DNA from: Solirubrobacterales bacterium
GTDB taxonomy: Bacteria; Actinomycetota; Thermoleophilia; Solirubrobacterales; 70-9
Direction of reading: 5' to 3'
DNA length: 64,000 bases
NCBI GenBank assembly: GCA_025450195.1
Contig: JANWHW010000011.1
Location: forward strand, 1-64,000
Shown: positions 43,205 to 45,768 of the stretch, one piece after another
Numbering within the stretch: position 1 is the first letter of the stretch
How the letters are laid out: each line of letters opens with the position of its first letter
The notes under the pieces: generated by a model
What the model was told of the DNA's origin: nothing
The model's database searches: none
The model's input: the letters and a program-made list of their open reading frames with translations, nothing else
Position numbers and translations under genes: made by a program

Positions 43205-43523
43205 GGCGGCTGGTCAGAGCGCCGAGCCCGCCACGGGTCTGCTGACGACCGCGCCTGCGGATCTCGAGCAGGACCAGAGCGCCGGTGGCGAGCCCGCCGG
43301 CACTCACCGCGACGACCGGGCGGACCCAGTTGCGCGGATCGCGCAGCGCGCGCAGCTCGCTCTCCGAGAGCTCCTCGGCCCAGTCGGAGAGCTCCTCGGC
43401 CGCCGCCTGGGTAACCGCCGAAAGCGTGTCCTCGACGCGCCCTGAAAGCCGCTGCGGCGGCTCGATCGGCCGCAGCGCGTCCGCAAGCAGCTGCTCTACC
43501 TTGTTGATGTCACTCGAGGTCAC
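43197..43523 (-). CDS. Small membrane protein coupled to an ECF sigma factor (candidate anti-sigma)
   Basis: The 108-residue protein has a helical N-terminal region of about 70 residues and one membrane helix near the C-terminus (WVRPVVAVSAGGLATGALVLLEI), then a basic tail. Its start overlaps the ECF sigma gene by 14 bases. Position and architecture fit an anti-sigma factor, but the zinc-binding HxxxCxxC motif of ZAS-type anti-sigma factors is absent. Alternatively it is an unrelated small membrane protein. Confidence 0.62.
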   Translation of the reverse strand: MTSSDINKVEQLLADALRPIEPPQRLSGRVEDTLSAVTQAAAEELSDWAEELSESELRALRDPRNWVRPVVAVSAGGLATGALVLLEIRRRGRQQTRGGLGALTSRLK

Positions 43524-44067
43524 TGTTCATCTCCTCTTCGAGCTGTTTGATTCCCCGGTGGATCAAAACCTTCGTGGCGCCATCGCTGCGGCCCAACGCT
43601 CTGGCGATCTCGCGGTTGTCCATCCCCAGCGCAAACCGCATGATCAACGCATCGCGCCGGTCGTCCGGCAGGTGCTGGAGCCGATCCATCACTTGCCTCA
43701 GCTCCTCGCGGCCCTCCGCGATCGCCTCTGTGCCATGGCGAGCCGGGACAGGCTCGGCGCTGTCCAGCGGCGTTTGGGGCCGCCGCGAGCGATCCCGGTA
43801 GTAGTTGAGCGCAAGGTTGTGGGCAATCCGAATCAGCCAGGGGCGCAGCGGGCGACCGTTTGACTCCCGCCGCGCACGATCGAAATGCCGGTATGCCTGC
43901 AGGAACGCCTGCTCGGTGAGGTCTTCGGCGTCGTGGTGATTGCCGATCCGGTAGTAGGCGTAGGAATAGACATCTCGGAGGTGAGCTCGATAGAGCTCTT
44001 CGAAGGCGCGATCGAGCTCTGCCTTGGCGGCGGGATCGAGGCTGGCCGGCTCGACGTTGTCGCTCAC
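43510..44067 (-). CDS. ECF-family RNA polymerase sigma factor
   Basis: The 185-residue protein has sigma-2 (about residues 27-95: YRAHLRDVYSYAYYRIGNHHDAEDLTEQAFLQAY and RPWLIRIAHNLALNYYRD) and sigma-4 (about 120-175: LPDDRRDALIMRFALGMDNREIARALGRSDGATKVLIHRGIKQL). It directs RNA polymerase to a specific regulon, often in response to envelope stress. The overlapping downstream membrane gene may encode its anti-sigma factor. No autoregulatory promoter was identified. Confidence 0.93.
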   Translation of the reverse strand: MSDNVEPASLDPAAKAELDRAFEELYRAHLRDVYSYAYYRIGNHHDAEDLTEQAFLQAYRHFDRARRESNGRPLRPWLIRIAHNLALNYYRDRSRRPQTPLDSAEPVPARHGTEAIAEGREELRQVMDRLQHLPDDRRDALIMRFALGMDNREIARALGRSDGATKVLIHRGIKQLEEEMNSDLE

Positions 44068-44100: not shown

Positions 44101-45768
44101 TCATGCCGCCTCTTTCCTCGAACGCTCGACTTTGCGCAATCGAGCTACCCAGGTCTCGGTGTCGATCTCGCCCCCGATCAGCTCCGTCAAGCCTTCCAGC
44201 GCAGTGGCGGGGTTGCCAGAGCCTGAAATCGCCTCGGCCAGCAACGGCACGGCGTCCAGGCCCTCAGAGGCCTGGCCGATAAGGCTTGGGATCTCTTCGG
44301 CAGGCGTCCCGCGTCCGAGCAGCTCCCCCGCCCGGCGATTGCGACCTGAAGGCGCCAGCAGGGTCGCCGTCAGATCGCCAACGCCGGCCAGGCCCGAGAA
44401 GGTCTCCAGCTCGGCTCCGCGGGCAATCGCGTACCCAATGCACTCGCGCCAGACCTGAGCCGCGGCGATCCCCGCCGCGTTGAGGCCATGCCCATCGGTC
44501 GCGGCGGCCGCCAGCGCCGCGGCGTTCTTCGCGGCACCGGCCATCTCGACCCCGAGCACGTCGCCGGTCCGCTCACAGACCAGGCCGGCACGATCGAAGA
44601 CCTCTCCGAGCTGATTGCGAAGGTCCGCGTCGGCGGAGCCGAGAACCAGTGCAGCCGACCCGGATACCGCCTCGCGCGCGTGAGCAGGCCCACCGAGACA
44701 GGCAAGGGCGCGGGCGCGAATCCGTTCGCCGACATACTCGCCTGGAAGCTGGCCGCGGGGAGCGATCAACCCCTTGGTGAGCAGGAGCACGGATGAGCGG
44801 TCGCTGACCCGATCGGCAATCGCCCCGACCGCCTGCGGTAGCGAGCTGGAGGGAATTGCCAGGCAGACGAGGTCGAGCCCCGCCAGCTCAATCTCAGAAG
44901 CCTTCTTCACCTGCAGCGACTCCGGCAGCGCAACCCCCTGCAGGTATTGGTCGTTCTCGCGCAGCTTCGACATCTCCGCTGCCTGCTCGGAGCCGCGGGT
45001 GCCGAGCTGCACGTCGAGACCGCCTCGCGCAAGCAGCACCGCAACGGCAGTGCCCCAGCTCCCGGCGCCAATCACCGCGGCACGGCGCATTGGCGGCAGG
45101 CCACCCATCGCTTCCCACTGGAGCAGGACGTTGGGCCAGATCTTTGCCGTGACCGTTTCGGCCAGCTGCGGAGAGGGCTTCTCGGCCCGCGGGAACGACA
45201 TCGCCGGGCCCAGCCGCACCGTCACTTTGCGGGGACGGATCCGCCAGCCGCGGCGGACGTGCTCGGTGCCGAAGACGGCGGTCGGCAGGACGGCGGCGCC
45301 GGTCTGAAGGGCAAGGCGTCCAACCCCCCGTTTGGGAGCGGCCAGCGTGCCGCTGCGGATTCGAGTCCCCTCGGGAAAGATGCAAACCGTGCCGCCACGC
45401 TCGGCAACCTGCCGGGCGGTCTCCATCGCGGTCTCGTCGGCCTCTCCACGGCGAATCGGGAAGGCGCCGAGTCGCGACAGCAGCCACCCCTGTCCCCGCC
45501 GCTCGAAGAGCTCCACCTTTGCGACGTAGTTCATCGGCCGACGCCAGGGAAGGATCCCTCCAATCGCGAATGGATCGAGGAAGCTCCGGTGATTCGAGGC
45601 AACGATCAAGCCCCCCTTGAGGGGACCGTGGCCTTTGCCGTAGCGGACGTAGCGAAAGTAGACGAAGAAGAACGGCGTCATCAATGCTCTGGCGACCAGG
45701 TACATCGGCCAGTTCACGCCATGGCGGCGGGTGTACTCGTGGTAGCTCTGCAGCCGCTCTTCGCTCAC
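44101..45768 (-). CDS. Fusion of 1-acylglycerol-3-phosphate acyltransferase (PlsC) and glycerol-3-phosphate dehydrogenase (GpsA)
   Basis: The 555-residue protein joins two enzymes of phospholipid synthesis. Residues 1-220 are a PlsC-type acyltransferase with H60-x4-D65 (NHRSFLDPF) and FPEGTR (131-136). Residues from about 227 are GpsA: Rossmann motif AVIGAGSWGTAVAVLLARGG, the substrate region GGPAHAREA, catalytic Lys in EMAGAAKNAAAL, and FSGLAGVGDLTATLLAPSGRNRRAG. GpsA makes sn-glycerol-3-phosphate from dihydroxyacetone phosphate; PlsC acylates lysophosphatidate to phosphatidate. The GpsA part alone (329 residues from Met227) has normal length. The frame is uninterrupted, and no good ribosome-binding site precedes Met227, so a true fusion is likelier than two genes. 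GTG 45768 is the start. Confidence 0.95.
   Translation of the reverse strand: MSEERLQSYHEYTRRHGVNWPMYLVARALMTPFFFVYFRYVRYGKGHGPLKGGLIVASNHRSFLDPFAIGGILPWRRPMNYVAKVELFERRGQGWLLSRLGAFPIRRGEADETAMETARQVAERGGTVCIFPEGTRIRSGTLAAPKRGVGRLALQTGAAVLPTAVFGTEHVRRGWRIRPRKVTVRLGPAMSFPRAEKPSPQLAETVTAKIWPNVLLQWEAMGGLPPMRRAAVIGAGSWGTAVAVLLARGGLDVQLGTRGSEQAAEMSKLRENDQYLQGVALPESLQVKKASEIELAGLDLVCLAIPSSSLPQAVGAIADRVSDRSSVLLLTKGLIAPRGQLPGEYVGERIRARALACLGGPAHAREAVSGSAALVLGSADADLRNQLGEVFDRAGLVCERTGDVLGVEMAGAAKNAAALAAAATDGHGLNAAGIAAAQVWRECIGYAIARGAELETFSGLAGVGDLTATLLAPSGRNRRAGELLGRGTPAEEIPSLIGQASEGLDAVPLLAEAISGSGNPATALEGLTELIGGEIDTETWVARLRKVERSRKEAA

Follow-up and report, generated by a model that had tools for sequence, protein, structure and literature searches.

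In the textbook route of bacterial phospholipid synthesis, GpsA supplies glycerol-3-phosphate (G3P), the first acyl chain is added to it by PlsY or PlsB, and the substrate of PlsC is solely the product of that acylation. Attachment of the first acyl chain commits G3P to membrane-lipid synthesis. Here we describe a gene that encodes a PlsC-family acyltransferase (AT) and a GpsA-type G3P dehydrogenase as one polypeptide, the AT-GpsA fusion. It lies in a 64,000-nucleotide stretch of DNA (the window; positions 1 to 64,000 of contig JANWHW010000011.1, assembly GCA_025450195.1) from a member of the Solirubrobacterales, a soil-dwelling actinobacterial order in the class Thermoleophilia.

Comparison with described systems

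Each half of the fusion has a counterpart among free-standing enzymes. Coxiella GpsA (3K96) is the best sequence and fold match of the C-terminal half, resembling all of it (TMt 0.89-0.91, 28-29% identity, with all catalytic residues), but the fusion adds an N-terminal acyltransferase. The best sequence and fold match of the N-terminal half is the Thermotoga maritima PlsC/AGPAT (5KYM; sequence E 1e-12), with which it shares the HX4D and FPEGTR motifs and the PF01553 domain; the AT described here, however, is joined to GpsA and falls in a clade apart from both its paralogue AT12 and most PlsC proteins of outgroup operons. The Dunaliella enzyme 6IUY also holds a glycerol-3-phosphate dehydrogenase within a longer two-domain chain, but its extra N-terminal domain is a phosphatase, leading to glycerol and not to lipid. 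Other Thermoleophilia place a G3P acyltransferase gene, plsY, beside gpsA, but there the genes are separate, the acyltransferase belongs to an unrelated family, and the pair is absent from the Solirubrobacterales. Likened by description, mycobacterial PlsM (Rv2182c) is a PlsC-family protein that acylates G3P in an actinobacterium without PlsY (PMC10593935); it is unfused, however, and mycobacteria lack PlsX and possess PlsB2. A literature search of incomplete coverage found no report of a PlsC-GpsA fusion, an architecture that may already stand in public domain databases, and a search on Thermoleophilum diol lipids found nothing.

Two complete enzymes in one frame

A preliminary description of this DNA had proposed that a PlsC-family acyltransferase and GpsA are both complete within one 555-codon frame, and Pfam matches, intact catalytic residues and conservation bear this out (Table 1). 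Pfam assigns Acyltransferase to residues 49-165 (E 1e-26), NAD_Gly3P_dh_N to residues 231-378 (E 1e-26) and NAD_Gly3P_dh_C to residues 403-536 (E 2e-22). The motifs H60-x4-D65 and FPEGTR (F131-R136), located as described earlier, lie inside the PF01553 domain, as expected of the PlsC/AGPAT family, and the GpsA half contains both the NAD(P)-binding GxGxxG motif (GAGSWGT) and the catalytic Lys/Asn/Asp/Arg set. Residues H60, D65, F131, E133 and R136 of the AT half and K332, K414, N415, D465, R476, N477 and E502 of the GpsA half are invariant in all 42 aligned intact fusions. Measured against near relatives, the ratio of nonsynonymous to synonymous substitution rates (dN/dS) is ~0.14-0.23 for the two halves alike, indicating that both are under purifying selection. 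The AlphaFold2 model, built with 42 aligned sequences (pLDDT 91, pTM 0.85), has a helix at residues 200-220 that runs directly into GpsA. The protein scores below the curated NCBIfam cut-offs for PlsC/AGPAT (TIGR00530, 85.1 versus 102.95 bits) and for GpsA (best model 192.6 versus 257 bits). Neither the PlsB-type GPAT_C domain (PF19277) nor the PlsY-type membrane domain PF02660 is found in the fusion protein or in the window genome.

Table 1. Features of the fusion gene and of the adjoining genes in the window
Feature	Position	Strand	Remarks
AT-GpsA fusion gene	44101..45768	-	555 codons + stop, GTG start; full length kept in relatives
PlsC-family AT half, aa 1-222	45103..45768	-	PF01553 core 45274-45624; HX4D = H60/D65; FPEGTR = 131-136
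Conserved junction/linker, ~aa 205-227, IWPxxxLQWExxGGLPPM	45088..45156	-	
GpsA N-terminal NAD(P)-binding domain, aa 231-378	44635..45078	-	GAGSWGT just before/at start; K332
GpsA C-terminal catalytic domain, aa 403-536	44161..44562	-	K414-N415, D465, R476-N477, E502
ECF-type sigma factor	43510..44067	-	~33 nt past the fusion's stop, downstream
Small ORF, 108 aa, one probable membrane segment	43197..43523	-	Overlaps sigma gene; no Pfam match

Distribution and history of the fusion

Of 28 genomes sampled from the window's family, 26 encode the full-length fusion, among them a single-contig genome (G093); in one of the other two a contig end truncates the gene, and G180 is without it. Since the same uninterrupted frame recurs in these independent assemblies, we rule out a frameshift or chimera introduced by assembly. 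We also rejected independent initiation at Met227, since 12 of 42 homologues have Leu, Val or Ile at this position; internal initiation may still occur. At least 38 of 75 genomes from three sister families encode the full-length protein, and another ~9 carry a partial or decayed fusion. The named relatives are Solirubrobacterales metagenome-assembled genomes, the nearest being VRUE01000004 at 83%. The domain order, for which the preliminary description had proposed a search among relatives, is therefore present across the Solirubrobacterales, and a survey of 396 genomes of the phylum gave no full-length match outside the order among the matches listed.

In the window genome, and in its family as a whole, GpsA is present solely as the fused copy. 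Where the earlier account had raised the prospect of separate gpsA and plsC genes elsewhere in that genome, no second GpsA was found, but two more PlsC-family genes were. Exactly one GpsA C-domain is present in 45 of 50 genomes of the window's family, in 44 cases within a frame of at least 530 aa; the other five genomes, 54-91% complete, gave no detectable GpsA C-domain. In the tree, the GpsA proteins of the order form one clade (100/100) that divides into a fused (91/94) and a separate (99/96) branch. The simplest reading therefore places a single GpsA duplication at the root of the order, with one of the resulting copies becoming fused to the AT, likewise once.

The separate GpsA was subsequently lost in some lineages, while in others it was the fused GpsA half that was lost or decayed. 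Four genomes retain a separate GpsA beside a decayed fused half (G118, G103, G071, G160), and four have lost the fused half (G166, G142, G226, G163). In G238 the half is decayed, yet no separate GpsA was detected in this incomplete genome; G053 was set aside, as its seemingly decayed half runs into a contig end. AT-only proteins are scattered through the fused clade, where supported branches force at least three changes, and they retain the junction motif at their C-terminus, ending or diverging just after its GG. Because the GpsA half has repeatedly been lost or has decayed, and AT-only loci keep the junction motif and the neighboring sigma factor gene, the AT half is the constant part of the locus.

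Near absence of PlsY and PlsB

Matches to PlsY (PF02660) were found in just 10 of 121 genomes of the order. In a separate, overlapping sample, PlsY was present in 5 of 53 genomes of the order versus 137 of 146 other genomes of the class (Fisher p ~5e-31); this value ignores shared ancestry and overstates the contrast, because PlsY loss and fusion gain amount to one coincidence on the tree. Both events mark the base of the order. The PlsB C-domain exceeded its cut-off in just 4 of the 121 genomes, and PlsX is present in 115 of them, including the window genome (G000:C10:1766-2698). The absences of PlsY and PlsB rest on hidden Markov model searches of partly incomplete genomes, and the same search caught divergent PlsY-like proteins: four PlsY matches inspected within the order belong to a divergent subfamily with the altered motifs NPGAWNA and GGKxVM. 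This subfamily is present in few members of the order (L067, L068, L069, L070). A PlsB hidden among the PF01553 matches was also rejected; such matches number three in the window genome, and those other than the fusion are in frames of 256-268 aa.

Gene order tells of the same loss. In the rest of the class plsY directly precedes gpsA, and outgroup families have the ancestral operon tyrA-aroA-cmk-plsC-der-plsY-gpsA. The same site in the order reads tyrA-aroA-cmk-der-metK, with plsC, plsY and gpsA all gone (window genome, G093, G166). With canonical PlsY and PlsB missing from nearly the whole order, the acylation of G3P must fall to a PlsC-family protein. The near absence of PlsY and PlsB despite PlsX is a new point.

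Predicted function

Judging from sequence, distribution and gene order, the fused AT is the best candidate for the main G3P acyltransferase of the order, with AT12 as its rival; we hold this assignment an even proposition. The GpsA half is predicted to reduce dihydroxyacetone phosphate (DHAP) to G3P with NAD(P)H, as the only GpsA of the cell in the window genome. The AT half, probably membrane-associated like other PlsC proteins, most likely transfers an acyl chain to G3P, yielding lysophosphatidic acid (LPA) and standing in for the lost PlsY; G3P would be its acceptor instead of, or alongside, LPA, and its acyl donor could be acyl-ACP, acyl-CoA or acyl-phosphate, the expected product of PlsX. 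The second acylation would fall to the separate paralogue AT12, and G3P might be handed over between the halves. The preliminary description saw in the fusion a link between two phospholipid-synthesis steps. The joining of two intact domains is real, but the textbook PlsC and GpsA steps are not adjacent; with PlsY and PlsB missing from the order, the fused AT may carry out the first acylation, in which case one step would directly follow the other. More tentatively, the protein could be a one-chain LPA synthase (DHAP to G3P to LPA) in which a PlsC-family AT replaced PlsY throughout the order, possibly fed by acyl-phosphate from PlsX.

Mycobacterial PlsM offers a precedent for G3P acylation by a PlsC-family protein (PMC10593935). 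The complement of paralogues is consistent with assigning the first acylation to the fused AT. Three AT orthogroups recur in the order, the fused AT, AT12 and AT9, and one sister genome (G202) has only two PlsC-family proteins, the fusion and AT12, the minimum for two acylations. In the AT tree, AT12 groups weakly (74/82) with most outgroup operon PlsC proteins and the fused AT forms a separate clade, which favors AT12 at the second step and the fused AT as a newcomer at the first.

Several observations weigh against the fused AT as the order's G3P acyltransferase. PlsX is retained although its usual partner PlsY is gone, and we know of no PlsC-family enzyme that uses acyl-phosphate. In several lineages the AT has outlasted its GpsA partner, which makes physical coupling dispensable; the suggestion that the fusion couples G3P supply to acylation finds no support as an obligate arrangement, as these lineages retain the AT without a working GpsA half. 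A clear fused-type AT is missing from 4 of 103 genomes of the order (G180, G139, G194, G218), one of them a single contig (G139), and therefore another protein can do its job there. AT12 lies directly downstream of glycerol kinase, another source of G3P, at 10 of 16 loci read. The AT half also bears the FPEGTR motif typical of PlsC, the LPA acyltransferase; as PlsM, of the same family, acylates G3P (PMC10593935), a motif of this type does not settle the acceptor.

In the likeliest alternative, the fused AT is an ordinary PlsC acting on LPA, AT12 is the G3P acyltransferase, and the fusion does no more than bring GpsA to the membrane or keep the two activities in proportion. The FPEGTR-type motif and the structural match to T. 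maritima PlsC would fit this reading, as would the glpK-AT12 pair, which is kept in three families of the order, the retention of AT12 where the fused AT is missing, as in G139, and an Actinomycetales contig in which an unfused plsC adjoins gpsA. Yet it is AT12 that stands nearer most outgroup operon PlsC proteins, though with weak support, and the fusion partner is the very enzyme that makes G3P; we regard this alternative as rather unlikely. Less probable still is that both ATs are promiscuous like PlsM and PlsB2, each acting at one position on both G3P and its monoacyl product, with the GpsA and GlpK links joining two G3P sources to two ATs. The dual-substrate mycobacterial enzymes are a direct precedent (PMC10593935), and each of the two ATs has a link to an enzyme that produces G3P, but the mycobacterial pair includes a PlsB-type enzyme, which is absent here. 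That co-expression is all the fusion amounts to, with adjacent genes joined by neutral read-through and the two domains working independently, is very improbable: it would suit the repeated loss or degeneration of the GpsA half beside an AT half that persists with the same downstream sigma gene, but not an ancient fusion that arose once and has stayed intact in at least four families, a conserved junction, similar purifying selection on both halves, and the sole GpsA of the window's family.

Related loci and neighboring genes

The three genomes G139, G194 and G218 belong to one genus (g28), and in the single-contig G139 the fusion used as query gave no GpsA match either. In the window genome, glpK and AT12 (L105:6379-9031, G000:C12) present a second link of a G3P-making enzyme to an acyltransferase. 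The Actinomycetales contig (L066:9461-11829) has separate plsC and gpsA genes that overlap by 4 nt, flanked, as read from translations, by EPSP-synthase-family (murA-like) and D-Ala-D-Ala-ligase-like genes. This is an independent plsC-gpsA association; descent of the fusion from such an actinomycete pair is unsupported, the L066 PlsC grouping with AT9 on a long branch.

Downstream of the fusion, a gene for an extracytoplasmic function (ECF) sigma factor is the neighbor at almost every locus of the order that encodes the fusion or the AT alone. The 108-aa open reading frame (ORF) that overlaps it is anti-sigma-like by position, and almost throughout the order the two follow the fusion, or the AT-only gene, within tens of bases. 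Genes for lipid synthesis and for an envelope-stress regulator may here be united in one operon.

Significance

Nearly the whole order keeps PlsX without canonical PlsY or PlsB, and the fusion is a candidate for the first, committed acylation. If this is true, a PlsC-family enzyme took over the job of PlsY, and the making of G3P and its acylation were joined in one protein. The order offers a natural comparison of the intact fusion, the decayed GpsA half and the AT alone.
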